Positions 25,156 through 42,647 of a DNA stretch of 64,000 nt are shown here, in pieces. Source of the DNA: Anaerococcus mediterraneensis (GTDB lineage Bacteria; Bacillota; Clostridia; Tissierellales; Peptoniphilaceae); NCBI RefSeq assembly GCF_900128415.1, contig NZ_LT635772.1:1-64000 (forward strand), given 5' to 3'. The notes under the pieces were generated by a model. The model did no database searches, was not told the DNA's origin, and saw only the letters and a list, made by a program, of their open reading frames with translations. Positions within the stretch are counted from its first letter, which is position 1, and each line of letters starts with the position of its first letter. The position numbers and the translations under genes are program-made.

Positions 25156-26157
25156 TTAAGCTTTTCTAGAGTTAACTTTCTCGATTATTTGTGGAACTAC
25201 CACGAAAAGGTCTCCAACTATACCATAGTCAGCAATATCAAATATTGGTGCATCTGGATCTTTGTTTATTGCGATGATTGTATCACTAGCGCCTATACCA
25301 GCCAAGTGTTGGATGGCTCCAGAAATACCAACTGCTATATAAACTTTTGGTCCAACTGTTTTACCAGATTGTCCAACTTGGTGAGAGTGAGAAATCCATC
25401 CAGCATCTACTGCTGCACGTGAAGATCCTACTGTACCATCGAAAGCTGCTGCTAGATCTTCAATAAGTTTGAAGTTTTCAGCATCACCTAGTCCACGGCC
25501 ACCAGATACTATAAATTCTGCACCTTGTAGGTCTACTACATCACCTTCATCTCTTGGGATAAAGTCAAGAACTTTTGTTCTGATTGGTCCTGTGTATTCG
25601 ATATTTTCAGAAATTTCTTCGATTTCGTCTTTTCTACCTATAGCTTCTTTAGAGAATACGCCTGGTCTAACAGTACCCATTTGTGGTCTTGAATCTGGGC
25701 AAAGGATTTGAGCCATTAGGTTTCCACCAAATGCTGGTCTAGTCCATTTTACGTTTCCTGATTCTTCATCTACGTCAAGTTCTGTACAGTCTGCTGTAAG
25801 ACCTGTGTGTAGTCTAGATGATACTCTTGGACCTAGGTCTCTACCTCTGTTGGTAGCACCTATCAATATTGTGTCTGGATGATATTTTTCTACTAATGTA
25901 CATAGAGCATGAGCGTAAACATCTGTGCTGTATTGTTCGTAGATATCACCTTCAACTGTGATTATTTTATCAACACCGTGATCTTTTACTTCTTCTTTTG
26001 CTTTAGATACATCTTTACCTATAATAACTGCAACAAGTTTTTCTTTTAATGTGTCAGCCATTTTTCTACCAGGATTTAATAATTCCAATCCTACATTAAC
26101 AGCTGATCCGTCTTCTTTAGTTTCTACTAAAACCCATAGATTTTTTACTTCTGACAT
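25156..26157 (-). CDS. etfA: Electron transfer flavoprotein alpha subunit
   Basis: 333 residues. The N-terminal adenine-nucleotide-hydrolase-like fold (1-190) is followed by the FAD domain with SGGRGLG (near 215), SRAAVDAGW, HQVGQSGKTVGPKVYIAVGISGAIQH and NKDPDAPIFDIADYGIVGD. Together with EtfB and Bcd it carries electrons from NADH, in clostridia bifurcating to crotonyl-CoA and ferredoxin. It has no N-terminal ferredoxin extension. Eight bases after etfB, and followed by a strong terminator. Confidence 0.96.
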   Translation of the reverse strand: MSEVKNLWVLVETKEDGSAVNVGLELLNPGRKMADTLKEKLVAVIIGKDVSKAKEEVKDHGVDKIITVEGDIYEQYSTDVYAHALCTLVEKYHPDTILIGATNRGRDLGPRVSSRLHTGLTADCTELDVDEESGNVKWTRPAFGGNLMAQILCPDSRPQMGTVRPGVFSKEAIGRKDEIEEISENIEYTGPIRTKVLDFIPRDEGDVVDLQGAEFIVSGGRGLGDAENFKLIEDLAAAFDGTVGSSRAAVDAGWISHSHQVGQSGKTVGPKVYIAVGISGAIQHLAGIGASDTIIAINKDPDAPIFDIADYGIVGDLFVVVPQIIEKVNSRKA

Positions 26158-26165
26158 ATTACCCC

Positions 26166-26975
26166 CTAAATAAGCTTCTTATCATAAAGCTCTTCAAGTA
26201 GCTGTTGAGCAGCTTCGGAAGCTTCAAGATTTTCAAATATTTTACCTTCTTTTTTAACTTCTGGAGTATAAGATTTTTTAACTCTAGTAGGTGATCCATT
26301 TAGACCAATCTTACTTTCGTCTATACTTCCAGCAAGTTCTTCAAGAGTGATTTGCTTAATCTCAGCTTTTTTAGCTTTTAGTTTATCTTTGATTTTTGGA
26401 TATCTAAGCTCTTCATCTCCATATTTTGTAAAGGTAACTAGGGCTGGTAATGTACATTGAATATTTTGTGCTCCACCTTCTACCTCTTGTAGAACCTTGA
26501 TTCCTTCGTCGTTTAGTTCTGTTGTGTAAGCATATGTTACTTGTGGTAGGTCAAGGTGCTCAGCTATTTCTGGTCCTACTTGTGCAGTATCACCATCTAT
26601 AGCTTGAAGTCCACAGAATACCAAGTCAGGTTGACCTTCTGTTTCTGCAACTTTTTTAATAGCTTCAGATATAATGTAGCTTGTTGCTAGTGTGTCTGAT
26701 CCACCAAATTTTCTATCAGTTACTAAATATGCATTGTTTGCACCAACTGCTAAACAATCTCTAAGCATAGACTCTGCTTGAGGAGGTCCCATTGAAATAA
26801 CTGTTATTTTAATTTCAGGATTTTTATCTTTTAATTTTAAGGCTTGCTCTAGAGCAAAAGCATCATAAGTATTTAAGATACTTGGAACACCTTTTCTTAT
26901 AAGAGTGTTAGTAACTGGATCTATCTTGATCTCATTAGTGTCTGGAACTTGTTTAGCACATACGAAAATATTCAT
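26166..26975 (-). CDS. etfB: Electron transfer flavoprotein beta subunit
   Basis: 269 residues. Begins MNIFVCAKQVPDTNEIKIDP, the usual EtfB start. The segment FCGLQAIDGDTAQVGPEIAEHL (about 120-142) is the flavin-binding stretch that in bifurcating EtfB holds the bifurcating FAD. Together with Bcd and EtfA it should couple butyryl-CoA formation to ferredoxin reduction; the bifurcating character is inferred from family and context. 13 bases after bcd. Confidence 0.95.
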   Translation of the reverse strand: MNIFVCAKQVPDTNEIKIDPVTNTLIRKGVPSILNTYDAFALEQALKLKDKNPEIKITVISMGPPQAESMLRDCLAVGANNAYLVTDRKFGGSDTLATSYIISEAIKKVAETEGQPDLVFCGLQAIDGDTAQVGPEIAEHLDLPQVTYAYTTELNDEGIKVLQEVEGGAQNIQCTLPALVTFTKYGDEELRYPKIKDKLKAKKAEIKQITLEELAGSIDESKIGLNGSPTRVKKSYTPEVKKEGKIFENLEASEAAQQLLEELYDKKLI

Positions 26976-26988
26976 ATATCCTCTCTCC

Positions 26989-28125
26989 TTATCTTAAAAG
27001 TGCGCCAGATACAACCATTAACATAACCTCTGAAGTACCTTCATAGATTTCTGTAATTTTTGCATCTCTCATCATTCTTTCTACTTCATATTCTTTAATA
27101 TAGCCGTATCCACCAAATAATTGAACTGCTTTTGTTGTAACATCCATAGCAACTCTTGCTGCTTTTAGTTTAGCTTCTGCTGCTGCAATTGAGTAGCTTT
27201 CACCAGCATCTTTTAAGCAAGCTGCTTTATATACTAAGTGACGAGCACTTTCTATATCTATAGCCATTTCAGCAAGTTTAAATTGTGTATTTTGGAATTT
27301 AGCTATTGGTCTACCAAATTGTTGACGTTCTTTAACATATTTGATTGCTTTGTTTAGTGCGCCTTCAGCTATACCAAGAGCTTGAGCTGCTATACCAATT
27401 CTACCACCATCAAGTGTTTGCATAGCATATTTAAAGCCTTTTCCTTCTTCGCCAAGTAAGTTTGCAGCTGGGATTCTACAATCTCTGAATACTAATTCCA
27501 TTGTTGAAGAACCTTTGATACCCATTTTGTCTTCGATTGCACCAAAGTCAAATCCTGGTGTACCTTTTTCTACTATAAATGCTGAGATACCTTTTGTACC
27601 TTGAGATTTATCTGTCATAGCAAATACTACATAAATATCAGCATAACCAGCATTTGTAATAAAGACTTTTGAACCGTTAAGAACGTATTCATCACCATCT
27701 TTAACAGCTACAGTTTTTTGACCTGAGGCATCTGTACCAGCATCTGGTTCTGTAAGTGCAAATGCACCTAGTTTTTCACCTGAAGCAAGTGGAACTAAGT
27801 ATTTTTCTTTTTGTTCTTCATTACCGAATTTGTTAATACAATCTGTACCTAGTGATGTGTGAGCTGAAACGATAACACCTGTTGTAGCACAAGCTTTTGA
27901 TAATTCTTCAACGCAAAGTACGTATGTAAGAGTATCTAGACCAATACCACCTACTTCTTCTGGGAAAGGTATTCCAAAGAAGCCAAGTTCTTGCATTTTT
28001 TTAACGTTTTCTTCTGGGAATCTGTGATTCTCGTCAACGTCTATAGCTTTTGGAGCTACTTCTTTTTCTGCGAAGTCTCTAAACATTTTCTGCATTTCTA
28101 ATTGTTCTTCTGATAATTTATACAT
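26989..28125 (-). CDS. bcd: Butyryl-CoA dehydrogenase
   Basis: 378 residues, acyl-CoA dehydrogenase fold. FAD/substrate stretch [14 protein letters not shown] (about 120-133), [10 protein letters not shown], and the catalytic Glu in [12 protein letters not shown] near 363, the position typical of short-chain enzymes. It reduces crotonyl-CoA to butyryl-CoA with EtfAB. First gene of bcd-etfB-etfA, SD AAGGAGG. The promoter is at 28173-28201. Confidence 0.96.
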
Positions 28126-31512: not shown

Positions 31513-31785
31513 TCAATTAATCAAACTATCTAGGATCTCTTTATATTTTCCATAGTTATTATTATCAAAATGTATAAAAGAATTTTTAACCTTCAAATCT
31601 TTTATATGGGCACACTTACTTTCGCAGCCTGAGATAACTATGATATAGTCATAAACTTTACCTTTTTCTACATATTCAAACTTTATATGTGGGTAGGTCT
31701 TTACTATATTTTTATATAAACTTGACCTATCGTATTTGCTCATACACCCGCCACAGTATTTGATACCTACGATTTTATCAGTCAT
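31513..31785 (-). CDS. Small CGGC-motif protein, unknown function
   Basis: 90 residues with four early-to-middle cysteines: IKYCGGCMSKYDR at 8-20 and ISGCESKCAH near 52-61, a pattern suited to binding an Fe-S cluster or zinc. I recall similar short CGGC...YDR proteins beside clostridial catabolic enzymes but know no function. It overlaps the Nfu-like gene by 8 bases and ends the permease-AbfD-Nfu operon, so a role in metal-centre assembly or electron supply for the dehydratase is plausible. Inference only. Confidence 0.8.
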   Translation of the reverse strand: MTDKIVGIKYCGGCMSKYDRSSLYKNIVKTYPHIKFEYVEKGKVYDYIIVISGCESKCAHIKDLKVKNSFIHFDNNNYGKYKEILDSLIN

Positions 31786-32104
31786 CTTTTCTTAAGATTT
31801 TCTTTGCAAAATCCCACATATCCTCATCTACATCATTATAAATCCTGACATCTTTTATTTTTTCTGGGAATTTTTCTATCAAAGTATTTTTTATAAGATC
31901 TTCTGATGTAAACTGGGCTGATAGGCAGTTTTTACAGGCACCCAGTAGGCTTATTGTCAATATACCATCCTCAAAAGATTTTATTGACAAGTCTCCCCCA
32001 TGTGAATTTAGCACAGGTTTTATATATTGACCTATTGACTTAATTATTTCATGGTCTATATTTAGATTTTCCTTATTTATTTTCATCATCATTGATATGG
32101 GCAA
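31778..32104 (-). CDS. Nfu/NifU C-terminal domain Fe-S scaffold
   Basis: Up to 108 residues. The Nfu signature is clear: VLNSHGGDLSIKSFEDGILTISLLGACKNCLSAQ, where the CxxC bridges a cluster in the dimer. Nfu proteins deliver Fe-S clusters to apoenzymes. It overlaps the end of the AbfD-like gene by 32 bases. AbfD enzymes need a [4Fe-4S] cluster, so a dedicated carrier is sensible. The start is uncertain: ATG at 32104 or a run of ATGs at 32092-32086, none with a good SD. Confidence 0.88.
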   Translation of the reverse strand: MPISMMMKINKENLNIDHEIIKSIGQYIKPVLNSHGGDLSIKSFEDGILTISLLGACKNCLSAQFTSEDLIKNTLIEKFPEKIKDVRIYNDVDEDMWDFAKKILRKDD

Positions 32105-33536
32105 TCTTTTTAGCCATTTCTTTCTTAAGTGGTAGGTTGCCTTGTCTAGCTATCATTATTCTCTGAGCTTGTGGAGAGCCTGCTCCGTGCATTGACTCTG
32201 TCCTGTAACCTACAGCCGCTGTTCCAAGAGTTATATTTTCTATAAGCCTCATCAGTCTCATCCTATTTTCTGTTGACACTCCTGAAGCTCCTTTGAGGAA
32301 TTTTTCTACCCATGGACCGGTGATCTCTCCCCTAAAATCAGCTTCTGATGGCATGGTTACCATTAAGCCTCCAGCTATATCTTCTGCAAGTCTAGAGATC
32401 TCATAAGGGAACCTTGTTACGTTTTGCTTACAAACATTGGCTAAAAGTAGGTCTATCAGATAAGCTCCTGATTCTGTCTTACTACCCTCGTATGAACAAG
32501 CTAATGAACAAGCCCACATTGTTTCATTTAGGTGTTGCATTTCGATTAGTTTATCTTTTATGTGACTTGCTTTAGGTACTCCATTATAATCAGCAGCTAG
32601 TGCAGCCGCACCGATTAAAACATCACCCACACCTGTTTTACAAGCATAGGATTGTCTATGGAATCCTGCAAATCTTTCTACAAGCATGCCAGAGTATTTC
32701 CACTCTTTACACATGAAGACTCTCTCATTTGGTACAAAAACATCATCAAAGATTACAAGAGCTTCTTGACCTCCAAAGGTATTGTTGCCTAGGTCCATAT
32801 CTGCCCCATCTTCTAGTTTTCTAGTATCACAAGATTGTCTACCATAGATCATAAATACTCCTTCTGCATCGGATGGAACGGCAAAAGAAACTGCGTAGTC
32901 TTTGTCCTCTTCTCTCATTGCGATTGTAGGCATAACTAAGTGCTCGTGTGAGTTTATAGATCCAGTTTGGTGGGCTTTTGCTCCCCTAACTATGATCCCA
33001 TCTTCCCTAACTTCTTTTATCCTTAGATACATATCAGGGTCTTCTTGCTGGGATGGACTAAGTCCCCTGTCACCTTTTGGATCTGTCATTGCCCCGTCTA
33101 TAGTTAGGTCTTCTTTTTGGACTTTTATCATATATTTTTTAAATCTTTCATGATAATCAGTTCCATATTCCTTGTCCATCTCATATGTAGTAGAATAAAT
33201 TGCATTGAAGGCATCCATTCCAACACATCTTTGAAAACAGCTAGCAGTCTTTTGACCCAATAATCTCTGCATCTTTATTTTTTTGACAAGGTCATCTGTA
33301 CTATGGTGGATATGGGTAAATCTATTTATTTTTTCTCCAGTCAAATGACTTGTAGTTGTAAGCAGGTCTTCAAACTCTGGATCGAAAGCTAAATCATAGG
33401 TCATAGCCACAGAATTCATCGAAGGTCTTATGATCGGATGGTCTACCGGATTTTCTACAAGCTCACCAAACATATAAACCTTTAAATCTAATTTTCTCAA
33501 ACTTTCTAAATACTGTTCACCTGTCATTAATGTCAT
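32073..33536 (-). CDS. abfD: 4-hydroxybutyryl-CoA dehydratase / vinylacetyl-CoA isomerase-like
   Basis: 487 residues, same length as AbfD, HpaB-type flavoprotein fold. The reference enzyme holds its [4Fe-4S] by Cys99, Cys103, His292 and Cys299 plus FAD. Here C100 and C104 lie in TASCFQRCVG and H293 in GFHRQSYACKTG with C299: His-Cys spacing is one residue shorter than I recall for the reference (HRQSYGGC). All four ligands are kept, so dehydration of a 4-hydroxyacyl-CoA to crotonyl-CoA is likely, but this may be a side branch with another substrate. SD AAAGGAG; 19 bases after the permease. Confidence 0.85.
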   Translation of the reverse strand: MTLMTGEQYLESLRKLDLKVYMFGELVENPVDHPIIRPSMNSVAMTYDLAFDPEFEDLLTTTSHLTGEKINRFTHIHHSTDDLVKKIKMQRLLGQKTASCFQRCVGMDAFNAIYSTTYEMDKEYGTDYHERFKKYMIKVQKEDLTIDGAMTDPKGDRGLSPSQQEDPDMYLRIKEVREDGIIVRGAKAHQTGSINSHEHLVMPTIAMREEDKDYAVSFAVPSDAEGVFMIYGRQSCDTRKLEDGADMDLGNNTFGGQEALVIFDDVFVPNERVFMCKEWKYSGMLVERFAGFHRQSYACKTGVGDVLIGAAALAADYNGVPKASHIKDKLIEMQHLNETMWACSLACSYEGSKTESGAYLIDLLLANVCKQNVTRFPYEISRLAEDIAGGLMVTMPSEADFRGEITGPWVEKFLKGASGVSTENRMRLMRLIENITLGTAAVGYRTESMHGAGSPQAQRIMIARQGNLPLKKEMAKKIAHINDDENK

Positions 33537-33555
33537 TTTATTTCTCCTTTATTCT

Positions 33556-34863
33556 TTACACAATACCAAAAACAATATAAATAACCGCTGCCAATATCGA
33601 AACTAAAATCGGTATCAAACCAGAAGTTATAAACATATCAAAAAAACCGCTCTTGTGGTTTATGCCACAATAGTCTAGATAGGTAACAACTGCACCATCA
33701 TGTGGCATAGTGTTTAAACCTCCACATGATAAAGTTGCTACCCTGTGGAAAACTGCAATATTTAGCCCCTGAGCCTGGGCAATCTGTACATAATGAGCAC
33801 CCAAAGCATCTAAGGCAATAGCAAGACCACCTGAAGCAGATCCTGTGGCTGCAGCAAGGATATTAACAGCAATCATCAAACCAAATATTGGATGACCACC
33901 TATATTTATAACTATATCTACTAAGTGCTGAAAACCTGGTGAAGTCTTGACAACGGTACCAAAGCCAACAGCTGCAGAAGTGTTTATAATAGCTGATATA
34001 GCACTTCTAGAACCTATGTTAAATACATTAAATACTGTATCATTTTGTTTTATTATGTAAGTATAATTAAAAATCATAGCTACAACGACACCAACCAACA
34101 AAGCGATTTCTATCGGCTTTTTCAATACATTGAGTGTTATAAGTATCAAAATAAATGGCAACAAAGTAGATGTGATTGGGTTTGGTAGGTCAGCTTCTGG
34201 TATTTCAGAAACCTTTCTTTCTGGTTCTGTAAAATGCTCACCGTTAGCCCTTAATTTTTTTACCCTATACTCTAACCATATATATGCTAAAACAAACATC
34301 AAAGCAACAGAAATAAATCCTAAAATTGGTGCTGCCATTGCTGTTGTCCCAAAATACTCCATTGGGATTAAGTTTTGAATAGTTGGTGCTCCCGGTGCGG
34401 ACATAGCAAATTGAAATGCTCCTACCATTATTGTCGCTGGTATAAGTCTATTTGGTATATTTCCTGACTTAAATAAATTTATAACCACTGGATACATAGT
34501 AAAAATTATTACAAATCCTGATATACCACCATAAGCCAAAATTCCACCTGATACCATAGATATTAAAATAGCCTTATCAGCTCCCAATTTTTTTACAATC
34601 CATTGGGTTAAAGACTGGGCACCACCTGATACCTCCAGAATCCTACCAAAAATTGCACTGATCATAAATGTTGGAAACCAAGATTTTGTAAATCCAATAA
34701 AGCCCTGCATATATGTATCTGTATATGCCTGATATAGGTCCAGCCCGCCTGATAATGCTACTATTAATGCACAAATTGGTGCTGCCCATACCAGACTTGC
34801 ACCTCTGAATGCAAAAAACACCAGTAGTACTAGACCTACAAATATTCCAAGTACGCTTAACAT
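33556..34863 (-). CDS. GntP family organic acid permease, copy 1
   Basis: 435 residues, about 12 membrane helices. GntP-type features: ILAYGGISGFVIIFTMYPV and the C-terminal ATGSASGGLAIALDALG loop. GntP members carry gluconate, and close relatives carry D-3-hydroxybutyrate. Genetic link to the AbfD-like gene suggests 4-hydroxybutyrate or a similar hydroxy acid as cargo (inference). Paralog at 35574. First gene of its operon; SD AGGAGG. Confidence 0.88.
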   Translation of the reverse strand: MLSVLGIFVGLVLLVFFAFRGASLVWAAPICALIVALSGGLDLYQAYTDTYMQGFIGFTKSWFPTFMISAIFGRILEVSGGAQSLTQWIVKKLGADKAILISMVSGGILAYGGISGFVIIFTMYPVVINLFKSGNIPNRLIPATIMVGAFQFAMSAPGAPTIQNLIPMEYFGTTAMAAPILGFISVALMFVLAYIWLEYRVKKLRANGEHFTEPERKVSEIPEADLPNPITSTLLPFILILITLNVLKKPIEIALLVGVVVAMIFNYTYIIKQNDTVFNVFNIGSRSAISAIINTSAAVGFGTVVKTSPGFQHLVDIVINIGGHPIFGLMIAVNILAAATGSASGGLAIALDALGAHYVQIAQAQGLNIAVFHRVATLSCGGLNTMPHDGAVVTYLDYCGINHKSGFFDMFITSGLIPILVSILAAVIYIVFGIV

Positions 34864-34945
34864 CTTTCCTCCTATATATTATATTATGACAATACATACT
34901 ACAAACAATTTTCTATGTTTAGCAAAATAAAGTCACTTACGATAT

Positions 34946-34988
34946 ATTATAAATAATAAATAGTTTTTTGTCAATATATAAACTATTT
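34946..34988 (-). promoter_or_regulatory. Promoter of the permease-abfD operon with overlapping palindrome
   Basis: Minus strand TTGACA (34974-34969), 17 bases, TATAAT (34951-34946). AAATAGTTT (34958-34966) and AAACTATTT (34980-34988) are perfect 9-bp arms centred on the -35, well placed for a repressor. The rest of the 34864-35081 spacer is AT rich with no gene seen. Confidence 0.75.
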
Positions 34989-35081
34989 ATATCTTTCAAA
35001 AAATTCTATTGGAAATTTATTTAACAAATTTATATTATAATCAATTTTTTAAAAATTTTACAAGATTTAGATTAAGAATAT

Positions 35082-35107
35082 AAAAAATAGGCCCATAGGG
35101 CCTATTT
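35082..35107 (-). terminator. Terminator of the CoA-transferase-permease-maoC operon
   Basis: Minus strand AAATAGGCCC (35107-35098), loop TAT, GGGCCTATTT (35094-35085), then TTTATATTC. Confidence 0.93.
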
Positions 35108-35121
35108 CTACTTGAAAATTT

Positions 35122-35523
35122 TTATTTTTTTGGAGGCATTAATAAAGCTTCACCTGTTATAACTTCTTTGCCATCTTGGTTTGTAACTATTGTTTCAAAC
35201 TTTAAGAATCTATCTTTGAAATATTCTTTAACTTCGATTCTTGCTGTTACAGTATCACCAAAGAATACTGGTGCTGTGAAGTTAAGTTGTTGGCTAACAT
35301 AAATTGATCCTGGGATCATTGATGCTAGAGCATTTGAGATCAGACCTGATGTCAAAATACCATGTACAACTCTTTGTCCAAACACACCCTCTTCAGCTTT
35401 TACTTTATTTACGTGAGCTGGGTTTAAATCTCCAGTTATACCTGCAAATAAATATACATCTGATTCAGATATTGTTTTAGAAACTTCATATGAATCACCT
35501 ATTTTATAATCTTGTAAACTCAT
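35122..35523 (-). CDS. MaoC-like (R)-specific enoyl-CoA hydratase
   Basis: 133 residues, single hot-dog fold. FAGITGDLNPAHVN (about 26-39) is the hydratase 2 motif with catalytic Asp and His; GQRVVHGILTSGLI forms the adjacent helix. The family interconverts (R)-3-hydroxyacyl-CoA and trans-2-enoyl-CoA, here probably (R)-3-hydroxybutyryl-CoA and crotonyl-CoA. It ends an operon with a CoA-transferase and a GntP permease. Note that crt handles the opposite (S) form. Confidence 0.92.
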   Translation of the reverse strand: MSLQDYKIGDSYEVSKTISESDVYLFAGITGDLNPAHVNKVKAEEGVFGQRVVHGILTSGLISNALASMIPGSIYVSQQLNFTAPVFFGDTVTARIEVKEYFKDRFLKFETIVTNQDGKEVITGEALLMPPKK

Positions 35524-35573
35524 TTTTTCTCCTTTTATTTACTTTAACTATTCAAAAAAACTTTTTTGAATTT

Positions 35574-36917
35574 CTAGAATATTACGTCTCCTAAAAGACC
35601 TAATACTAGGGAAACTACTACTGGGATTATAGCGGTTGTTACAGCTATATCCTTGTATGATTCTTTGTGTGTACAGTTAGAAACTGCTAGTAATGTAAGA
35701 ACTGCACCGTTTTGTGGAAGTGTATCTAGACCACCACAAGAGATAGATGCGATCCTGTGCATTGCTGCAACTGGTATATTATTAGCTGCTGCTAGTTCTA
35801 TATATTTTGGTGCAAGAGCTTCTAGAGATATAGATAGACCACCTGATGCAGAACCTGTAGCACCTGCTAGTAAGTTAACTGCTAGGGCTAGTGAGAATAA
35901 TGGTGATCCAGGAAGTTTTAATATTGCATCTGTCAATGTAGCAAATCCTGGCACTACTTTAACTACAGAACCAAATCCTACTGCACAAGCAGTATTCATT
36001 ATAGCTAGTATTGAACCATTAGCTCCATCGTTGATAGCTTGCATAACTGTTTTTAGTTGGTTAGCATTCATCAAGGTACAAATTAAAATACCGCTGATAA
36101 GAGCTACAACTATTGGTTGGTTACCTTCCCATGCTATACCAAAGCTTGATTTAAGTATTTTTGGGAATATGTTTAGCATAAATATAACAACTAAGATTGG
36201 AATCAATCCAGATAGCCAGTGCCATGATGGGATTTTTGACTCATCAAATTCAACTTGAACAAACTTAGGGTCTTCTACAAAGCCCTCTCCACTAGCTTTA
36301 ACTTTCTTTATCCTACGGCTTAGGTAGATATATCCAGGTACTGCCATCAACAATGCTGCCACTATAGAGAACAATGGTGCAGCTGCTGCTGTTGTACCAA
36401 AGAATTTAGTTGGGATTAAGTTTTGGATTTGTGGTGTACCTGGTAGAGCTGTCATTGAGATACCAAATGCACCAAATGCTATTGCACCTGGCAATAATGT
36501 TCTAGGTATATTTGCTTCTCTGTAGATAGCGTATCCCATTGGGTAAACAACGAATACTACTACAAATAGTGATATACCACCATATGTCATTAGTAAGCAT
36601 GGAATGACTACAGATGCTAGGGCCCATTCTTGACCTAAAAATGAGATTATTTTGTTAGCAAGTGATCTTGCTGCACCTGTTGCATCCATTATCTTACCAT
36701 AAACAGCACCTAAGAAGAAGGCTGGGAACCAGGTAATTACATAATTACCAGCACCTGTCATGTAATCTGTTAGGTAGGCATCAAATAGGTTATAACCACT
36801 CATTAGGGCTACAACCATGGCAGCTACTGGAGCTACCCAGATTATTGAATGACCCCTAAAGGCTAGAAACATTAGTAGGAAAAGACCTACCAAGATTCCG
36901 ATTAACGATAAATTCAT
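35574..36917 (-). CDS. GntP family organic acid permease, copy 2
   Basis: 447 residues, about 12 membrane helices, with LLMTYGGISLFVVVFVVYPMG and LLAGATGSASGGLSISLEALAPKYIELA. Like copy 1 it belongs to the branch that includes D-3-hydroxybutyrate permeases. Sitting between a broad CoA-transferase and an (R)-specific hydratase, it most likely imports (R)-3-hydroxybutyrate or a homolog (inference). SD AGAGGTGAATT before ATG; 16 bases after the transferase gene. Confidence 0.88.
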   Translation of the reverse strand: MNLSLIGILVGLFLLMFLAFRGHSIIWVAPVAAMVVALMSGYNLFDAYLTDYMTGAGNYVITWFPAFFLGAVYGKIMDATGAARSLANKIISFLGQEWALASVVIPCLLMTYGGISLFVVVFVVYPMGYAIYREANIPRTLLPGAIAFGAFGISMTALPGTPQIQNLIPTKFFGTTAAAAPLFSIVAALLMAVPGYIYLSRRIKKVKASGEGFVEDPKFVQVEFDESKIPSWHWLSGLIPILVVIFMLNIFPKILKSSFGIAWEGNQPIVVALISGILICTLMNANQLKTVMQAINDGANGSILAIMNTACAVGFGSVVKVVPGFATLTDAILKLPGSPLFSLALAVNLLAGATGSASGGLSISLEALAPKYIELAAANNIPVAAMHRIASISCGGLDTLPQNGAVLTLLAVSNCTHKESYKDIAVTTAIIPVVVSLVLGLLGDVIF

Positions 36918-36933
36918 AATTCACCTCTAAACG

Positions 36934-38493
36934 TTAAATTTTATCTTTTAGTCCCATTAATCCATCATTAAAGATATCTTTATCCATTTCTTTTACATCT
37001 TTTACGATTGGTTTAAAGTCCATATGTGCTAGTATATCTTTTTCTACATCGATGCCAGGAGCTACTTCTGTAAGCTCAACGCCTTCTGATGTTAGTTTGA
37101 ATACTGCTCTTTCTGTGATGTAGGTTACATCTTGTCCTGTAGATAGAGCGTAGTCGCCTGAGAATGTTACTTGTTCTACTTCATCAAGAAGTTTTACAAC
37201 TTTACCTTCATTGTCTATAACAAGCTTTCCATCTTCTACGTGAGATTTAAATCCACCTGCTGTGAATGTACCACAGTAAACAACTTTCTTAGTGTTTTGT
37301 GAGATATTGATAAATCCACCACAACCAGCTATTTTTGGACCAAATTTAGAAACATTGATATTACCTTTTTTATCCATTTGAGCAAGGCCTAGGAATGTAA
37401 CATCAAGTCCACCACCATCATAGAAGTCAAATTGGTTTGGTTGGTCTAGGATACAATCTGGGTTTGTTGTTGCACCAAAGTCGTTACCACCAGCTGGTAC
37501 TCCACCAATTGTTCCTGCTTCTGTTGTAAGGATTAGTCCTTCAACTCCTTCTTCTGCTGCTACTAGGGCAACACCTTCTGGCATACCTATACCAAGGTTT
37601 GTAACAGAGTTTGGAACTAATTCAAGAGCTGCTCTTCTAGCGATGATCTTTCTAGCGTCAAGATCTAAGAATTCTAGACTATCAACTGGAACTTTGATCT
37701 CACCACTGTATGCTGGGTTATATTGAGAACCCCATGTTTGTCTGTGATCTTCAGGATCAGCAACAACTATAGCATCTACATTGATTCCAGGAATCTTAAC
37801 TTTTCTAGAATCAAGAGAACCATATTCAACAACTTTTTCAACTTGAAGAATAACTTTACCACCTGAGTTTTTAGCAGCTTGGGCTAAAACTAGTACATCT
37901 GAGTAACCTGATTCTTTTTCTACAGTTGCGTTACCTTCTGTATCACAATATGTAGCTCTGATAAGTGCCACATCTATTTTTCTAGATGGGTAAAATAGTC
38001 TTTCTTGTCCATCGATTTCTATAAGTTTAACTACATCTTCGTCTTGGCGAGCTAGGTCGTTTAGTTTACCACCCTCTAGTCTTGGGTCAACAAATGTGTT
38101 TAGACCAACAGTTGTAACTAGACCTAGAGAACCAGATCCTATTTCTCTAAATAGTTTAGATATAGAACCTTGTGGTAGGTTGTATGCTGCAACCTTGTTA
38201 TCCATAGCTAGTTTTTGAATTCTTGGTGCTAAGTTCCAGTGACCACCGATGATTTTAGAAAGTATGCCTTCTTCACCTAGGTGGTTAAGACCACGTTCTT
38301 TTCCATCACCTTGTCCTGCTGCATACATTAGTGTTAGATCTTTAGGTGCTTGTTTTTCCAAAAATTCTTCTTTGATTGCCTTAACCAAAGCTTCTGGATG
38401 GTTAGCTCCTACGAATCCACTTGTTGCAATGGTAGCACCATTTTTAACATACTTAGCAATAGCTTCTCTAGCTGTAAGTACTTCTTTTCTCAA
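36934..38493 (-). CDS. Propionate/acetate CoA-transferase type (PCT family), TTG start
   Basis: 519 residues, alpha and beta halves fused as in Pct/YdiF. N-terminal GATIATSGFVGANHPEAL loop; in the beta half NLGIGMPEGVA and LTTEAGTIGGVPAGG, where the Glu of TTEAG is the catalytic nucleophile; GCGGFINIS late. Family members load short-chain and hydroxy acids using acetyl-CoA or butyryl-CoA. The only start fitting SD AAAGGAGG is TTG at 38493. It leads permease and MaoC genes, so it probably activates the imported hydroxy acid. Confidence 0.92.
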   Translation of the reverse strand: MRKEVLTAREAIAKYVKNGATIATSGFVGANHPEALVKAIKEEFLEKQAPKDLTLMYAAGQGDGKERGLNHLGEEGILSKIIGGHWNLAPRIQKLAMDNKVAAYNLPQGSISKLFREIGSGSLGLVTTVGLNTFVDPRLEGGKLNDLARQDEDVVKLIEIDGQERLFYPSRKIDVALIRATYCDTEGNATVEKESGYSDVLVLAQAAKNSGGKVILQVEKVVEYGSLDSRKVKIPGINVDAIVVADPEDHRQTWGSQYNPAYSGEIKVPVDSLEFLDLDARKIIARRAALELVPNSVTNLGIGMPEGVALVAAEEGVEGLILTTEAGTIGGVPAGGNDFGATTNPDCILDQPNQFDFYDGGGLDVTFLGLAQMDKKGNINVSKFGPKIAGCGGFINISQNTKKVVYCGTFTAGGFKSHVEDGKLVIDNEGKVVKLLDEVEQVTFSGDYALSTGQDVTYITERAVFKLTSEGVELTEVAPGIDVEKDILAHMDFKPIVKDVKEMDKDIFNDGLMGLKDKI

Positions 38494-38552
38494 AATGTCC
38501 TCCTTTTATTATAATAAATATTAATACCCCATAAGAAATCATTTGATAAATA

Positions 38553-38635
38553 TGTCTAGACAAAGATGAATATTTAATAATTCACATACTTTTTATTAAA
38601 TTAGTCTAGAATATTCATATATACTCACTTATCAA
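38553..38635 (-). promoter_or_regulatory. Promoter and TCTAGA repeats before the CoA-transferase
   Basis: Minus strand TTGATA (38635-38630), 16 bases, TATTCT (38613-38608). The palindrome TGTCTAGACA (38553-38562) lies in the leader, and a second GTCTAGA (38604-38610) overlaps the -10; they are exactly 50 bases apart, on the same helix face. The remaining gap to 38992 is AT rich and empty as far as I can see. Confidence 0.5.
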
Positions 38636-38992
38636 GTCCTGAAATGGAGTGGTATCAGAAAACAATTTCCTATATAATAAGTTTAACATATATTTAAAAT
38701 CTAATCAATACTTTATTTGTAAATTTTAATTTATTTATATACTCCAAATTTTAAAAAATTCCTTTAATCCTGATATTTGAACAATCAATCCCATCTTTAT
38801 CAAATAAAACAAAAAATAAATGTGCATATTTATTAGTTATTTTTTAATATTTTATATATTTTGAAATTTTTCATAATATTAATTGCTTATATATTAATAG
38901 TGTTTTCATATTTTTACTTTTTATAAATTATTATGCAAAATTACAATAATTTACTTCAATATTTGAAAAAACATTCATATTTTTTAATTATA

Positions 38993-39030
38993 AAAACACC
39001 CCTTATCAAAGTTGACAAGAGGTGTTTTAT
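38993..39030 (-). terminator. Terminator of had-atoE
   Basis: AAAACACC (38993-39000) with GGTGTTTT (39021-39028), extended by CTT/AAG after a one-base mismatch; minus-strand T run follows. Confidence 0.85.
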
Positions 39031-39033
39031 TTA

Positions 39034-40428
39034 TTAGATAAATGAGAATATTGCGGTTATACCGAACATCATCACTGTACCAGCTAACATGACTGTCATA
39101 GAATAACCCATCATGTCTTTAGCTTTTAACTCTGTTATACCTAGTACTGATAGGGCCCAGAACGGTTGAGCAAGGTTTGTTAGAGAGTTACCAAAGGCAA
39201 CTGTAATTGATGTCATGAGTTTGTCAGCATTCATAAGTCCTGCTGCAGTCATTGAAATTGGACCTTGAACAGCCCATTGTCCACCACCAGATGGGACGAA
39301 CATATTGATAATACTAGCTACAAGTAGGTTCATTATATAGAATGTTCCTGGAGTACTTACTGATACAAGACCATTGGCCAAAACATCTACCATGCCTGAG
39401 TATTGGATTATACCCATGATACCAGCATAGAATGGGAATTGGAATATAATTCCTGATGCGTTAGATGTTGAGTTTGCAAAGGCCTTTACATAGTTGGCAA
39501 TTGTACCTTGTAGGATTAGACCTAGGAATAAGAATATACCGTTTAGTGAGTTTAGGTTGAATGCACCAAATCCATCTCTAACTAATAGGTAGATAACATA
39601 TACAAGTCCTACTATACCAAGGCCGGTACCTATAACTCTAGAATTATTTAGTTTTTCACCAACAGAATTAGATTCTTTAACATCTTCTTTATTATCAGAT
39701 TGAGAAAGAATTTTTGATTCTCTTTCAAACATGTCTATTGCGTATTGTGGGATGCTTATTTGTTTACCTTCAGCTGGATGGATTAGGTAAACAAATAAAG
39801 GTGTTAATACCAACATTACTATAGCCATAGTCACATTTAGTGGGTGGAAGATAAATTGTGTAAATGGAATAACTCCCATTGATTCTTCCAAGAAGTGGCC
39901 AGGTGTTGCTATTGATAGACCTACTGATGTAGATAGACCACAGCACCAAGTCATCATACCTGTATAGGCAGCTGCACCAAATAAACCATATGAGAATTGT
40001 TTTTTCTCTCTATAGAATTTTAGACCAATTCTTTTAGCAAGTATAGCACCGATTGTAGTACTTAGTCCGTAGTGAACATAAGATAATAAAATAGCCACAA
40101 ATGAAATTAGGGCTGCTGCTTGTTTAGCATTTTTTGGTTTTTCTGATATTTTTTCTATTATTCTACTAACAGCCTTTGTTTGAGCTACAGCACCACCTGT
40201 TATAACTACAAGGGCCATTTGCATTGCAAAGGTTAGTAGGGTCCAGAATCCTTGCCACCAGTTGTCTAATAGACTTATAGGTGTAGAGTCTGTAAATATT
40301 AATGAGATTATATAGGCTAATACAGTAAGTAGGACCGCAAAAATAGTTGGGTCTGGCATGTATTTTTGTGACCATCTTGTTAGGCTATTACCTATGCCTA
40401 CAATTCCTCTTTCTTTCTTGTTTTCCAT
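39034..40428 (-). CDS. atoE: AtoE family short-chain fatty acid / acetoacetate transporter
   Basis: 464 residues, about 11-13 membrane helices. Typical AtoE stretches: WWQGFWTLLTFAMQMALVVITGGAVA, YVHYGLSTTIGAILAK, FQFPFYAGIMGIIQYSGM and FVPSGGGQWAVQGPI. E. coli AtoE takes up acetoacetate and short-chain acids. It follows a 3-hydroxyacid dehydrogenase, so it probably imports the hydroxy or keto acid used there, or acetoacetate itself. SD AAGGAG; 26 bases after the dehydrogenase gene. Confidence 0.93.
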   Translation of the reverse strand: MENKKERGIVGIGNSLTRWSQKYMPDPTIFAVLLTVLAYIISLIFTDSTPISLLDNWWQGFWTLLTFAMQMALVVITGGAVAQTKAVSRIIEKISEKPKNAKQAAALISFVAILLSYVHYGLSTTIGAILAKRIGLKFYREKKQFSYGLFGAAAYTGMMTWCCGLSTSVGLSIATPGHFLEESMGVIPFTQFIFHPLNVTMAIVMLVLTPLFVYLIHPAEGKQISIPQYAIDMFERESKILSQSDNKEDVKESNSVGEKLNNSRVIGTGLGIVGLVYVIYLLVRDGFGAFNLNSLNGIFLFLGLILQGTIANYVKAFANSTSNASGIIFQFPFYAGIMGIIQYSGMVDVLANGLVSVSTPGTFYIMNLLVASIINMFVPSGGGQWAVQGPISMTAAGLMNADKLMTSITVAFGNSLTNLAQPFWALSVLGITELKAKDMMGYSMTVMLAGTVMMFGITAIFSFI

Positions 40429-40454
40429 AAATTTCTCCTTGAAATCAAGTTATA

Positions 40455-41408
40455 TTATTTATTTTTGTTTTTTTCTATTTCGTCTTTATAAACTGTTTTT
40501 ATTAGATAATCATTGAGGGCTTGGACAGATTCTTCTGTTTGTTCTTTTGTCCATTTTTGATAGCCTTCTAATGTTTTAAATCCAAGTTTATTTTCTTCTT
40601 TAAGTTTGCTTAGAGAATCATTTGGTTCAGGTCTGTTGTACAAGTATTCAACAACGTTCTTTTGAATATTGTATTCTAGATCTACACCTATAAGGTCGAT
40701 ATTTTCCATTGGTCCTATTTGTGGATAACGAAGACCAAAACCATTTCTTACAGCTATATCAACCATCTCTGGGCTAGCTATACCTTGTTCTACTATGTAA
40801 ACTGCTTCTCTCCATACAGCTGTCTGTAGTCTGTTGCCTATAAAGCCAGGAGCATCTTTTTCACAGATAACTGGTTTTTTGCCAAGTTCTGTAAGGATAT
40901 CAAATACTTGTTTTGCAACTTCATCATCAGTATATTCTGATTTTACAATCTCTACTAATGGAAGTAAGTGTGATGGGTTCCAGAAGTGGATATTAACAAA
41001 ACGATTTTTATTTTTTAGGTCCCTACTTAAAATTGTTGGTCCTATAACAGATGAGTTTGATCCAAGAATTGTATCTTCAGCAACTCTAGCCTCAAGATCT
41101 GCAAAAACTTTTCTCTTGATATCTGGATCTTCATAAACTGATTCAATAATCAAATCAGCATTTTTGATCATATCGCTATCGATATCAAGGGTGAATTCGA
41201 TCCTGTTGATTCTGTCTTCTTGTTCTTCTTCACTTATAACGCCATTTTCAACAAGTTTTCTTGTGTTGGTTTTTAGGATAGATTTAATGTCTTTTTCACT
41301 TTTACTACAGATTCCTACATTGTATTTAGGATCCTTGGTAAAAACAAAAGCCATATTAATACCCATGAGTCCGGCACCATAGATTACTACGTTTTTAATA
41401 TCTTTCAT
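40455..41408 (-). CDS. 3-hydroxyacid dehydrogenase of the hydroxyacyl-CoA DH superfamily
   Basis: 317 residues, longer than hbd. Rossmann start VVIYGAGLMGINMAFVF, catalytic His in HFWNPSHLLPLVEIV, and GFGLRYPQIGPMENIDLIG in the C-terminal domain. That last pair resembles L-carnitine and L-gulonate dehydrogenases more than Hbd ([14 protein letters not shown]), so it probably oxidises a free 3-hydroxy acid to a beta-keto acid. A BKACE gene, which cleaves beta-keto acids, diverges from it. It starts with SD AGGAGG under a strong promoter with a GAAAACG motif at the transcription start. Confidence 0.87.
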   Translation of the reverse strand: MKDIKNVVIYGAGLMGINMAFVFTKDPKYNVGICSKSEKDIKSILKTNTRKLVENGVISEEEQEDRINRIEFTLDIDSDMIKNADLIIESVYEDPDIKRKVFADLEARVAEDTILGSNSSVIGPTILSRDLKNKNRFVNIHFWNPSHLLPLVEIVKSEYTDDEVAKQVFDILTELGKKPVICEKDAPGFIGNRLQTAVWREAVYIVEQGIASPEMVDIAVRNGFGLRYPQIGPMENIDLIGVDLEYNIQKNVVEYLYNRPEPNDSLSKLKEENKLGFKTLEGYQKWTKEQTEESVQALNDYLIKTVYKDEIEKNKNK

Positions 41409-41427
41409 AATTCCTCCTAATAATAAA

Positions 41428-41479
41428 TTGAAAACGTTGTTCCTTAATTAATTCTATCATTATGCGAAAATTTTGTCAA
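41428..41479 (-). promoter_or_regulatory. Promoter of the hydroxyacid dehydrogenase-atoE operon
   Basis: Minus strand TTGACA (41479-41474), 17 bases, TAGAAT (41456-41451). TTGAAAACGTTGTT (41428-41441, plus orientation) covers the expected start. TTTTGTCAA (41471-41479) and TTGACAAAA (41494-41502) make a further inverted pair around the -35. Confidence 0.78.
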
Positions 41480-41704
41480 TAATATATCTAGTTTTGACAA
41501 AAATAGATAATTAAAATGCAAGTTTATAAAATTGATTGTAATATTATTAAATGATTTATTTATTACAATAATTTTCTTTCTCCTATAGTACTTATATTCT
41601 GCAATCCAGACTATTTTAATAAAATATTATGATGAATAAAAAAGTATAATTTTTTTTAATGATTTTAATAATAAAAATATATATTTATCCTAAAATACAA
41701 TTTA

Positions 41705-41772
41705 TTGACAAAATCCTATATCTATGCTATTCTAAAACCGAAATATATTTTGTATACCAAGAAAACGTTTTT
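41705..41772 (+). promoter_or_regulatory. Promoter of the BKACE gene with GAAAACG motif
   Basis: TTGACA (41705-41710), 17 bases, TATTCT (41728-41733). AAGAAAACGTTTTT (41759-41772) follows in the leader and resembles a CcpA cre half-palindrome. The 41503-41704 stretch between the two divergent promoters is AT rich with nothing else recognised. Confidence 0.72.
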
Positions 41773-41801
41773 ACATTTATTAAATTAGAAAGGCTAGGAA
41801 G

Positions 41802-42647
41802 ATGAAAAAGACAATTATAACTGTTGCTACAACTGGTGGTTTTACAAAAAGATCTAACAACCCAAATGTACCAATAACTCCAGAGGAAATAGCTAGAGAT
41901 GTCTATGACTGCTGGCAAGCAGGGGCTGCTATTGCCCATTTACATATGAGGGATGAAAATGAAGAAGGAACTATGTCAAAAGAAAAGTTTGAAGAGACTT
42001 TAAATATCCTAAAAAACGACTATCCAGACTGTGACATAGTACTAAACCTCACTACTTCTGGTGATCTTCATGCAACTGACATTACTAGACAGGAGCACCT
42101 AGAACTACTAAGACCAGAAATGTGTTCTTATGATGCTGGTACAATGAACTGGCAGCATTCGAGTCTCTTTGTGAATCACCCTGATTTTCTCAGAGAACTT
42201 GGAAAAAATACAATAAAATGGGATATAAAACCTGAGATAGAAGCTTTTGATCCTGGCATGATTGGCAATGCTGCTTATTACCTAAAAAATGGATTTTTGA
42301 AGGGTCCTCTTTACTTCCAATTTGTAATGGGAGCTGCTGGCGGAATTGAAGGTACTACTAAAAACCTAGTTTTTATGAAAGAAACTATGGATAGGCTTTG
42401 CCCAGGATCAGAATGGTCATGTTTTGGTATAGGAAAGAGCTCTATGGAAATCCTTTATGCAGGTATAGCTCTTGGTGGCCATGTCCGTGTTGGCATGGAA
42501 GATAATGTTAGGTATTCAAAAGATGAGCTAGCAAAAAGTAACCGTCAACTTGTAGAAAGAGCTGTTAGGGTTGTAAAAGAATTTGGAAATAAAGTTGCTA
42601 CTCCTGATGAAGCTAGAGAAATCTTGGGACTTAGGGGTAGGAAATAG
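41802..42647 (+). CDS. BKACE family beta-keto acid cleavage enzyme
   Basis: 281 residues, TIM barrel, formerly DUF849. Zinc ligands H46 and H48 in IAHLHMRD and a Glu in VGMEDN (E233), matching the layout of 3-keto-5-aminohexanoate cleavage enzyme (Kce). These enzymes condense a beta-keto acid with acetyl-CoA and split it into acetoacetate and a new acyl-CoA. The substrate differs widely in the family: 3-keto-5-aminohexanoate, dehydrocarnitine, ketoglutarate-like acids. No lysine-fermentation genes lie nearby; the neighbour is a 3-hydroxyacid dehydrogenase, so the substrate is its product. Acetoacetate can then enter the butyrate pathway. Confidence 0.93.
   Translation: MKKTIITVATTGGFTKRSNNPNVPITPEEIARDVYDCWQAGAAIAHLHMRDENEEGTMSKEKFEETLNILKNDYPDCDIVLNLTTSGDLHATDITRQEHLELLRPEMCSYDAGTMNWQHSSLFVNHPDFLRELGKNTIKWDIKPEIEAFDPGMIGNAAYYLKNGFLKGPLYFQFVMGAAGGIEGTTKNLVFMKETMDRLCPGSEWSCFGIGKSSMEILYAGIALGGHVRVGMEDNVRYSKDELAKSNRQLVERAVRVVKEFGNKVATPDEAREILGLRGRK

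Follow-up and report, generated by a model that had tools for sequence, protein, structure and literature searches.

The locus considered here, from Anaerococcus mediterraneensis, raises the question of whether an ∼11-kb block of transporter and acyl-CoA enzyme genes adjoining but-thl-hbd-crt-etfAB-bcd supplies substrates to butyrate formation or lies beside these genes by accident. The window analyzed is a 64,000-nucleotide stretch of contig NZ_LT635772.1.

Organization of the Block and of the Core Butyrate Locus

Every gene of the block (31,513–42,647) named in the original prediction is an intact open reading frame with a family match, and the genes are arranged in three runs, pct-gntP2-maoC (operon 1), gntP1-abfD-nfu-cggc (operon 2) and hcdh-atoE, together with a divergent bkace:

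20457–28125, minus strand: core butyrate locus, bcd-etfB-etfA-crt-hbd-thl-but
28346–28354, no strand assigned: GAAAACGTT site between bcd and glcD
31513–31785, minus strand: cggc, 90-aa protein with CGGC..C...C
31778–32104, minus strand: nfu, NifU-domain protein adjoining abfD (PF01106, 59.1 bits)
32073–33536, minus strand: abfD, 4-hydroxybutyryl-CoA dehydratase homologue, operon 2 (PDB 1u8v match)
33556–34863, minus strand: gntP1, GntP-family permease, first gene of operon 2 (PF02447)
34946–34974, minus strand: promoter TTGACA-17-TATAAT 5′ of gntP1, 12/12 positions
35083–35109, minus strand: terminator-like hairpin 3′ of maoC
35122–35523, minus strand: maoC, PhaJ-type (R)-specific enoyl-CoA hydratase, final gene of operon 1 (PF01575)
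35574–36917, minus strand: gntP2, GntP-family permease, operon 1 (PF02447)
36934–38493, minus strand: pct, class I CoA-transferase (YdiF/FadX/propionate-CoA-transferase type), first gene of operon 1
39034–40428, minus strand: atoE, short-chain fatty acid transporter 3′ of hcdh (PF02667, 395.7 bits)
40455–41408, minus strand: hcdh, 3HCDH-fold dehydrogenase (PF02737/PF00725)
41430–41438, no strand assigned: GAAAACGTT site in the hcdh leader
41761–41769, no strand assigned: GAAAACGTT site in the bkace leader
41802–42647, plus strand: bkace, beta-keto acid cleavage enzyme, divergent from hcdh (PF05853, 339 bits)

The terminator and promoter positions fit the three minus-strand operons and one divergent gene of the original prediction, whose enzyme identities are likewise backed by family matches (an AbfD/HpaB fold, two GntP permeases, MaoC, a CoA-transferase, AtoE and BKACE). 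Three more genes of the block, hcdh, nfu and cggc, had not been named there; the real nfu start probably lies slightly inside the annotated frame. The promoter of gntP1 is the only sigma-70-type promoter matching at 12/12 positions in a 12-kb scan, those 5′ of hcdh and bkace match at 11/12 and 10/12, and a hairpin is found 3′ of bkace. Because the scan counts are near expectation (62 promoter-like sites against 53.5 expected, and 9 terminator-like sites against 6.1), the weaker candidates carry no meaning.

The neighboring butyrate genes are real by their profile matches, and their set and order are identical in 7/10 genus regions. The But protein falls under the cut-off of TIGR03948, its nearest model by far (571.5 vs. 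674.8), and is probably, but not surely, a butyryl-CoA:acetate CoA-transferase. For Bcd and EtfA the best models are those of acryloyl-CoA reductase, both below cut-off (539 vs. 640 and 366 vs. 600, respectively), so that a crotonyl preference of Bcd-Etf is only putative.

The pct-gntP2-maoC Module and a Proposed Mechanism

The best-supported part of the block is pct-gntP2-maoC, read as a module for uptake, CoA loading and dehydration to crotonyl-CoA of an (R)-3-hydroxy acid that is probably (R)-3-hydroxybutyrate. The sequence of pct gives a TTG start codon with AGGAGG on its 5′ side, and its product aligns with PDB 2ahu (E = 1e-140), placing a Glu at YdiF position 333, which we take to be the catalytic residue; it scores below the Staph FadX cut-off (416.8 vs. 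750), and no named equivalog was assigned. The MaoC protein matches PDB 5cpg (E = 4e-26) and 1iq6 (E = 8e-21), retains the GD-x-NP-x-H motif, and, with solved (R)-specific hydratases as its closest relatives, is taken as a probable (R)-hydratase. GntP2 scores 35.6 with PF02447 (cut-off 22.5). With the gluconate:H+ symporter model TIGR00791 it reaches 39.6 against a cut-off of 292.75, while GntP1 has no match; both permeases are remote from this NCBIfam model, a point that counts against the preferred reading.

Of the 130 family genomes, 19 encode a PCT at ≥42% identity, and a GntP lies within ∼2 kb of it in 14 of the 19 (own genome included in both counts), adjacent in 13 and with two genes between in G009; the remaining five (G018, G107, G090, G064, and G003) have no nearby GntP match. 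In G067 a single run reads pct-gntP-crt-bcd-etfB-etfA, its GntP being 70% identical to GntP2 and its Bcd 75% identical to that of the window, while crt-pct-gntP stands next to a divergent bcd in G041, G042, and G043, and G073 carries maoC-pct-gntP. Recurrence of PCT and GntP with Crt or MaoC, and sometimes with Bcd-Etf, is as predicted by a funnel into crotonyl-CoA. The G067 and G073 clusters contain the same kinds of gene as operon 1, in G067 in one run with Bcd-Etf, although G067 has Crt where operon 1 has MaoC and neither AbfD nor BKACE occurs in the stretches read.

Taken as a whole, the block may be a local assembly of catabolic entry modules through which small hydroxy acids reach the adjacent crotonyl-CoA and butyryl-CoA steps, a reading to which we assign a probability of about 0.5. 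We infer all of its substrates, transport directions and CoA donors, as well as the link to butyrate yield, from gene content. The substrate imported by GntP2 would be an (R)-3-hydroxy acid, in the likeliest case (R)-3-hydroxybutyrate, to which PCT would transfer CoA from acetyl- or butyryl-CoA, and MaoC would dehydrate the (R)-3-hydroxyacyl-CoA to crotonyl-CoA, an entry point beyond the (S)-specific Hbd/Crt core pair. Part of the crotonyl-CoA would be reduced to butyryl-CoA by Bcd-Etf and the remainder oxidized to acetyl-CoA by Crt, Hbd, and Thl. GntP1 would import the AbfD substrate, most likely 4-hydroxybutyrate, for which CoA would come from PCT or But, since AbfT is missing, and AbfD, perhaps with help from Nfu and CGGC for its iron-sulfur cluster, would then make crotonyl-CoA. 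In the third unit, hcdh would oxidize some free 3-hydroxy acid to a beta-keto acid, BKACE would convert this and acetyl-CoA to acetoacetate and an acyl-CoA, and AtoE would move acetoacetate or the substrate of the unit. The parallel funnels of the original prediction are in part favored, by the enzyme identities and by the company that PCT and GntP keep in relatives; they need amending for AbfD, which here has no AbfT, and for the BKACE unit, whose dehydrogenase looks to be of the free-acid type and whose BKACE is not of the lysine kind.

Conservation and Origin of the Block

The block is not conserved; its parts are mostly known, and their exact assembly is unseen in the relatives examined. 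Among the 130 family genomes, 9 have a match to AbfD and 8 to BKACE, and at E up to 1e-30 a match to AtoE occurs in 7 and one to GntP1 in 17; AbfD and BKACE occur together only in the genome studied here. No such match to AbfD, BKACE or AtoE was found in the other 30 genus members, and the block genes are absent from the 10 genus But loci read. A conserved block was rejected on the scattered family counts and this single co-occurrence. At an eleventh But locus, that of G023 (L132), But is followed by a pair of thiolases, a CoA-transferase in two parts, a GntP (28%) and a dehydrogenase that shares 31% identity with hcdh; in kind, this resembles the arrangement here and favors the entry-module reading, but the genes differ, are distant from those of the block, and include no AbfD, BKACE or MaoC. 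Partly against the original prediction, relatives carry the parts at separate loci, and some of these, namely maoC-pct-gntP of G073, pct-gntP of G058 and the Anaerosphaera AbfD operon, lack butyrate genes within the stretches read. These observations argue against co-inheritance, not against the chemistry.

The block looks like a local assembly where two genus-conserved segments join: it lies between but...glcD-lrgAB and pflA-crp-ykvI, which are >60 kb apart in 12 relatives (those in which But and ykvI share one contig), a ∼200-nt repeat with 7 genome copies at ≥84% identity (own copy included) marks its left edge, and its parts differ in their best relatives. These features lend some weight to an explanation that we nevertheless regard as unlikely, namely that the substrates of the modules are unrelated and pass to butyrate only via ordinary acetyl-CoA pools, the proximity of the modules to the butyrate locus being an accident of rearrangement or gene gain at a permissive site, whereas the association of GntP and PCT with Crt, Bcd, and Etf in several relatives opposes it, as does the rare word GAAAACGTT common to the upstream regions of bcd, hcdh, and bkace. 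The 2.08-Mb genome contains 10 copies of this word, of which bcd and the leaders of hcdh and bkace account for 4; it was chosen after two copies had been noticed, operons 1 and 2 lack it, and the bcd-glcD gaps of relatives contain it exactly in 1/7, with one further near match. It looks like a general catabolite-control site, albeit a putative one, and the standard cre consensus at ≤2 mismatches shows no excess in the window (34 vs. 36.2 expected).

The entry-module reading can be extended, with considerable doubt, to a horizontally assembled “hydroxy-acid island” docked on the butyrate locus, in which (R)-3-hydroxybutyrate, a ketone body of the host, would serve alongside 4-hydroxybutyrate and the precursor of a beta-keto acid as parallel butyrate sources and electron sinks, the two GntP operons would share PCT as a substitute for AbfT, and Nfu and CGGC would be dedicated AbfD maturation factors.

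The hcdh-atoE-bkace Unit

Of the proposed modules, the BKACE unit is the one whose reading is least certain. The hcdh protein keeps the Ser/His/Asn of HBD and has lost the equivalents of the CoA-contacting Lys56 and Asn221, residues named in PMC10470551, and on these residues it is probably a dehydrogenase for a free 3-hydroxy acid. In BKACE, the Glu14 position of KCE is Phe. PMC10470551 presents TfD as a 3HCDH homologue without Lys56/Asn221 and TAL as a BKACE with Trp replacing Glu14, and the changes in hcdh and BKACE are of the kind it gives for free-acid TfD and TAL. The hcdh residue pattern is likely common to other free-acid dehydrogenases, and hence not TfD-specific. In favor of the entry-module reading, BKACE and AtoE genes also lie ≤∼1.2 kb apart in G071 and G077. 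A lysine-fermentation KCE was rejected for BKACE (284 vs. a cut-off of 382, and Glu14 replaced by Phe), and carnitine, listed with the original prediction among the acids to try, is not indicated by the carnitine dehydrogenase models (136.3 vs. 592 and 104.9 vs. 414).

The residue changes suggest an alternative, which we judge improbable, in which hcdh-atoE-bkace would supply the later steps of a route like that for phloroglucinol, with a triacetate-forming dehydrogenase and a triacetate acetoacetate-lyase, and would receive a 3-hydroxy-5-oxo acid or similar compound by import. The 73% BKACE ortholog of G077, with Trp at the aligned place, adjoins a sodium symporter and a PF04199 hydrolase (cyclase), of the ring-opening enzyme’s family, rather than hcdh or atoE. 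This alternative is countered by the triacetate acetoacetate-lyase model NF053538, with which BKACE scores 218.3 and the G077 ortholog 213.5 against a cut-off of 430, and by the family relatives of hcdh, which reach 39% identity at best. The genome moreover has 0 PF04199 matches, in a search that found the family in 8/14 control genomes, and a complete phloroglucinol pathway was rejected on this ground.

The gntP1-abfD-nfu-cggc Module

For operon 2, the entry-module reading is favored by AbfD, which aligns over its full length with PDB 1u8v (E = 9e-243) and retains the cluster residues CxxxC, His and Cys, which we take to be C99, C103, H292, and C299. The final Cys lies one residue closer, as in 12/44 other AbfD loci; since the loop deletion is common to these, it was rejected as the mark of a new enzyme. 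GntP1 barely passes PF02447 (23.5 vs. 22.5 bits) and is 42% identical to GntP2 and 45–46% to the GntPs that accompany pct in G058 and G073. Homologues of nfu occur at 11/44 AbfD loci and 0/38 other regions, as do those of cggc; the CGGC protein has no match in Pfam or NCBIfam, and its four Cys are invariant among 10 aligned proteins. AbfT was absent from a genome-wide search, in which the genome yields only But (37%) at E up to 1e-10, and the CoA donor for the AbfD route must therefore be PCT, But or another enzyme.

In Peptoniphilus senegalensis, P. lacydonensis, P. indolicus, Anaerosphaera multitolerans, and Criibacterium bergeronii, AbfD is 81–87% identical and abfD is accompanied by nfu and cggc, as here; these five operons have abfT and a 455-aa putative permease, in contrast to GntP1 here, and no BKACE or AtoE match occurs in the stretches examined around them. 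AbfD operons of named relatives join a CoA-transferase, a putative permease (no Pfam match), nfu and cggc, and the L145 run is abfD-abfT-nfu-cggc-gntP-pct. At least one crt/hbd/thl/bcd/etf match is present in the stretch examined at 18/44 named AbfD loci, so the pairing of AbfD with these genes is not new.

It is doubtful, though conceivable, that AbfD acts solely as a vinylacetyl-CoA isomerase, an activity named in PMC4591306, or takes part in a GABA/succinate route together with enzymes encoded at other places in the genome, and does not act on imported 4-hydroxybutyrate. The failure to find AbfT accords with such a role; operon 2, however, opens with a transporter and contains no reductase or aminotransferase, and the AbfD operons of relatives likewise couple a putative permease and a CoA-transferase.

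Very unlikely, finally, is an acrylate-type route from lactate or 3-hydroxypropionate to propionate by PCT and the acryloyl-CoA-reductase-like Bcd-Etf, with GntP and glcD-lrgAB moving lactate-type acids, for although PCT-type enzymes load lactate and the Bcd and EtfA scores lean this way, thl-hbd-crt stand in one run with bcd-etf, no lactoyl-CoA dehydratase is present among the genes scanned (17.4 to 46.7 kb), and a PhaJ-type MaoC fits crotonyl better than lactoyl chemistry.

Significance and Comparison With Known Systems

If the entry-module reading is true, GntP, PCT and a PhaJ-type MaoC would form a genetic signature for organisms that convert (R)-3-hydroxybutyrate to butyrate, which may escape surveys resting on but, buk, and abfD, and the small proteins Nfu and CGGC would become testable AbfD partners. 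That 3- and 4-hydroxybutyrate can be fermented to butyrate has itself long been known. Clostridium homopropionicum grows on 2-, 3-, and 4-hydroxybutyrate (PMC4591306, citing Dorner & Schink 1990), converting hydroxybutyrates to acetate and butyrate with abfD, abfT and several CoA-transferase genes; it differs in having abfT, and PMC4591306 describes no GntP/MaoC/BKACE block. TfD and TAL of Clostridium scatologenes, as given in PMC10470551, combine a free-acid 3HCDH dehydrogenase with a BKACE and end in acetoacetate and butyrate, whereas the present genome is without the ring-opening family PF04199 of that phloroglucinol route and its BKACE is sub-cut-off. Ilyobacter polytropus, of the Fusobacteriaceae, is alike in its fermentation: according to PMC3035301, it ferments 3-hydroxybutyrate to acetate and butyrate, as is proposed here.

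Gene content of the accessory block

The open reading frames and protein families named in the original prediction, which had read the block at 31,513-42,647 as a set of parallel funnels of hydroxy and beta-keto acids into butyrate formation, proved real by ORF reading and family matches, and three further genes (hcdh, nfu, and cggc) belong to it. The genome is a single contig of 2.08 Mb, in which the block and its left neighbourhood are arranged as follows:

20457..28125, minus strand: core butyrate run bcd-etfB-etfA-crt-hbd-thl-but, lying beyond glcD-lrgAB
28524-31076, plus strand: glcD-lrgAB, left of the block
from 34863, minus strand: operon 2 (gntP1, abfD, nfu, cggc), with a 12/12 promoter ahead at 34974-34946
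38493-36934, minus strand: pct, followed by gntP2 and maoC (operon 1), closed by a hairpin at 35109-35083
from 41408, minus strand: operon 3 (hcdh, atoE)
41802-42647, plus strand: bkace, with a promoter-like site ahead and a hairpin 3' of the gene

Position and origin of the block

Both flanks of the block are widespread in the genus: of 31 genus genomes, 29 encode But (E up to 1e-100) and 28 carry ykvI, the gene on the right flank (E up to 1e-60). The order but-thl-hbd-crt-etfA-etfB-bcd is kept in seven of ten But regions compared, and glcD follows bcd in seven, accompanied by lrgAB in three; the gene after glcD in three relatives is histidyl-tRNA-synthetase-like, as read from the protein start. 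The placement of glcD(-lrgAB) beside bcd suggests uptake and oxidation of a 2-hydroxy (lactate-like) acid coupled to Bcd-Etf. Across these ten But regions and eight ykvI regions, abfD, gntP, pct, maoC, atoE, and bkace gave no match in any of the 18 (E up to 1e-8). But and ykvI are separated by 21 kb here and by more than 60 kb in the 12 relatives that carry both on one contig, as measured along the contig and not around the circle. Because the flanks are conserved in the genus without the block genes and lie far apart in relatives, the block is located at the junction of two genus-conserved segments. A repeat of ~200 nt at its left edge (31262-31462), present in seven genome copies of at least 84% identity, this one counted, is flanked by two CCCCTCATAATAGGGACT copies and looks like a miniature mobile element. 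The idea of a conserved system was not borne out, as the block is a patchwork found only in A. mediterraneensis among the genomes searched.

In an eleventh But region of the genus (L132, from genome G023), chosen on other grounds and outside the ten-region sample, the genes after But are, in order, thl, one for a two-part CoA-transferase, a second thl, and those for a GntP (28%) and a 3HCDH protein (31%); an accessory set stands beside But there, but its genes are not close to the window's counterparts. As a separate observation, the family genome G107 (L124) has a glcD homologue followed by bcd-etfB-etfA-lrgA-lrgB, and a pct-bcd pair divergent from this run.

The PCT-GntP-MaoC operon

The proposed funnel into butyrate is plausible and well supported for operon 1, both by residues of its enzymes and by the recurrence of PCT-GntP pairs with crt, bcd, and etf. 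The class I CoA-transferase PCT aligns end to end with YdiF and retains the glutamate at YdiF position 333, which is catalytic in YdiF, while the solved structures closest to MaoC are those of (R)-specific enoyl-CoA hydratases, and the motif GD-x-NP-x-H is intact in MaoC. A PCT at least 42% identical to the window's is present in 19 of the 130 family genomes, its own included, and 14 of these have a GntP (E up to 1e-30) no more than ~2 kb away, directly adjacent in 13 and two genes away in G009. No GntP at that threshold was found within ~2 kb of the PCT in G018, G107, G090, G064, or G003, the last three judged from search coordinates only. The partners of the pair vary: crt-bcd-etfB-etfA in G067 (identity to the window's proteins: 70% for GntP, 75% for Bcd); crt, a divergent bcd, and the Etf pair in G042 and G043; crt and a divergent bcd in G041, where only the EtfA part of the Etf pair matched; maoC in G073; crt and maoC in G004; and a short-chain dehydrogenase and thiolase in G009. 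Such variety fits a scheme in which a 3-hydroxy acid enters by way of GntP and PCT and the additional enzyme decides its route. The Hbd-Crt type of pair in the core run acts on (S)-3-hydroxyacyl-CoA, so a PhaJ-type MaoC would be a natural adapter of (R)-3-hydroxybutyrate, the presumed substrate, to the core pathway. A second crt-gntP-maoC group is located elsewhere in the genome (L198:9149-11868, about 1.849-1.852 Mb), beside a zinc-type ABC transporter.

The AbfD operon

AbfD, a homologue of 4-hydroxybutyryl-CoA dehydratase, aligns along its length with the solved dehydratase 1u8v, presumably that of Clostridium aminobutyricum, and retains the cluster residues. Its loop before the last cysteine is one residue shorter, a trait common to 12 of 44 named AbfD loci, the nearest ones included, although these loci derive from a pattern scan finding mainly close relatives and several are short, so that fractions of them are no census. 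AbfD occurs in nine of the 130 family genomes and was not found in any other genus member. In five named relatives (L135, L136, L138, L139, and L154) the operon consists of abfD, nfu, abfT, a 455-aa putative permease with no Pfam match, and cggc; gntP1 occupies the transporter's place in the A. mediterraneensis operon. A tree of 14 rows places GntP1 closest to pct-linked GntPs (45-46%) and to GntP2 (42%), with group support of 92/95, under the 95 mark. For operon 2 the funnel claim retains fair support from the full-length, residue-conserving AbfD, while abfT, encoding its usual CoA-transferase, was not found in the genome, where But, 37% identical, is the sole protein matching the AbfT of a relative (E up to 1e-10).

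The window is not alone in having AbfD next to GntP and PCT, yet the arrangement is seen in one of the 44 loci (L145, abfD-abfT-nfu-cggc-gntP-pct). Proximity of AbfD to core butyrate genes is common, with at least one crt, hbd, thl, bcd, or etf match in 18 of 44 loci (that in L178 only 26% identical); in G107, bcd-etfB-etfA lies ~16 kb from abfD. Nfu and CGGC proteins are each encoded on the same strand in 11 of the 44 loci and in 0 of 38 other regions compared, a control that is lenient to them in that the iterated profiles were built on the same AbfD loci. Four cysteines are invariant in ten aligned CGGC proteins (the window's and nine of the 11 matches). Since AbfD holds a [4Fe-4S] cluster, it is a fair guess that Nfu and CGGC (31513-32104) are candidate maturation partners of AbfD. 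In open-licence literature searched for the dehydratase joined with NifU, Nfu, or GntP, the dehydratase was unmentioned among the matches listed.

The HCDH-AtoE operon and BKACE

In 3-hydroxybutyryl-CoA dehydrogenase, the CoA part is held by Lys56 and Asn221, and catalysis and recognition involve Ser117, His138, and Asn188 (PMC10470551, available part). When mapped through the solved structure 4kug and alignment, the first two positions are Arg/Asn in the core Hbd of the window and Val/Gly in hcdh, and equivalents of the other three are retained in hcdh. Because the CoA-holding positions are replaced and the other three kept, hcdh more likely encodes a free 3-hydroxy-acid dehydrogenase.

The beta-keto acid cleavage enzyme BKACE retains the His-x-His and Glu-Asp positions that we take to form its metal site, and has Phe at the position of Glu14 in the lysine-route enzyme. 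The triacetate lyase of C. scatologenes has Trp there (PMC10470551, available part), as does the closest family BKACE at the aligned place (G077, 73% identical). This ortholog clusters with a PF04199 cyclase and a sodium symporter (L117:6328-9983), resembling part of a phloroglucinol-type pathway; PF04199 was not found in the A. mediterraneensis genome, and both BKACE proteins fall well below the triacetate model cut-off. Other BKACE genes lie within ~1.2 kb of atoE in G071 and G077, so the pairing recurs. Acetoacetate as the BKACE product fits the neighbouring pathway, and no finding points to carnitine, which had also been put forward as a substrate. A funnel into butyrate is a possible role of operon 3 with bkace. 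For the block as a whole, the accessory genes at the G023 But locus, the genomes whose PCT lacks a GntP neighbour, and the pairing of BKACE with atoE pull both ways and leave the odds of the funnel idea unchanged.

A DNA word shared with bcd

The word GAAAACGTT is present in the leaders of hcdh (41430) and bkace (41761), and twice more at bcd, in the bcd-glcD gap (28346, 221 nt before bcd) and inside bcd (28003), giving four copies in the window against 0.38 expected. The whole genome contains ten copies (and 96 of the reversed word), so these sites make up four of the ten. Eight of ten are intergenic by ORF reading, and several stand a short way ahead of catabolic genes, one of which encodes a further acyl-CoA dehydrogenase (products read from protein starts). 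Once the two defining copies are set aside, six of eight fall between genes (p 7e-5 to 1.2e-3 if the intergenic fraction is taken as 0.12 to 0.20) and two of eight lie in the window (p 0.02), for a word chosen after the fact. Of seven bcd-glcD gaps inspected in relatives, one contains the exact word (L180) and one more a near match (L185), and the word is absent at operons 1 and 2. GAAAACGTT resembles a catabolite-control site.

Comparison with known hydroxybutyrate fermentations

No account of such a block was found in the available parts of open-licence literature on 3-hydroxybutyrate, GntP, propionate CoA-transferase, Peptoniphilus, and Anaerococcus, a silence that gives weak evidence that none exists. 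Anaerococcus and several Peptoniphilus groups are recorded as having a complete but branch in a survey covering the butyrate genes of gut clostridia, and the term 4-hydroxybutyrate is absent from the available part of that survey (PMC13106387). I. polytropus ferments 3-hydroxybutyrate to acetate and butyrate (PMC3035301, available part), and C. homopropionicum ferments 2-, 3-, and 4-hydroxybutyrate (PMC4591306). Because such fermentations have long been known, the conversion of hydroxybutyrates to butyrate is not new chemistry.
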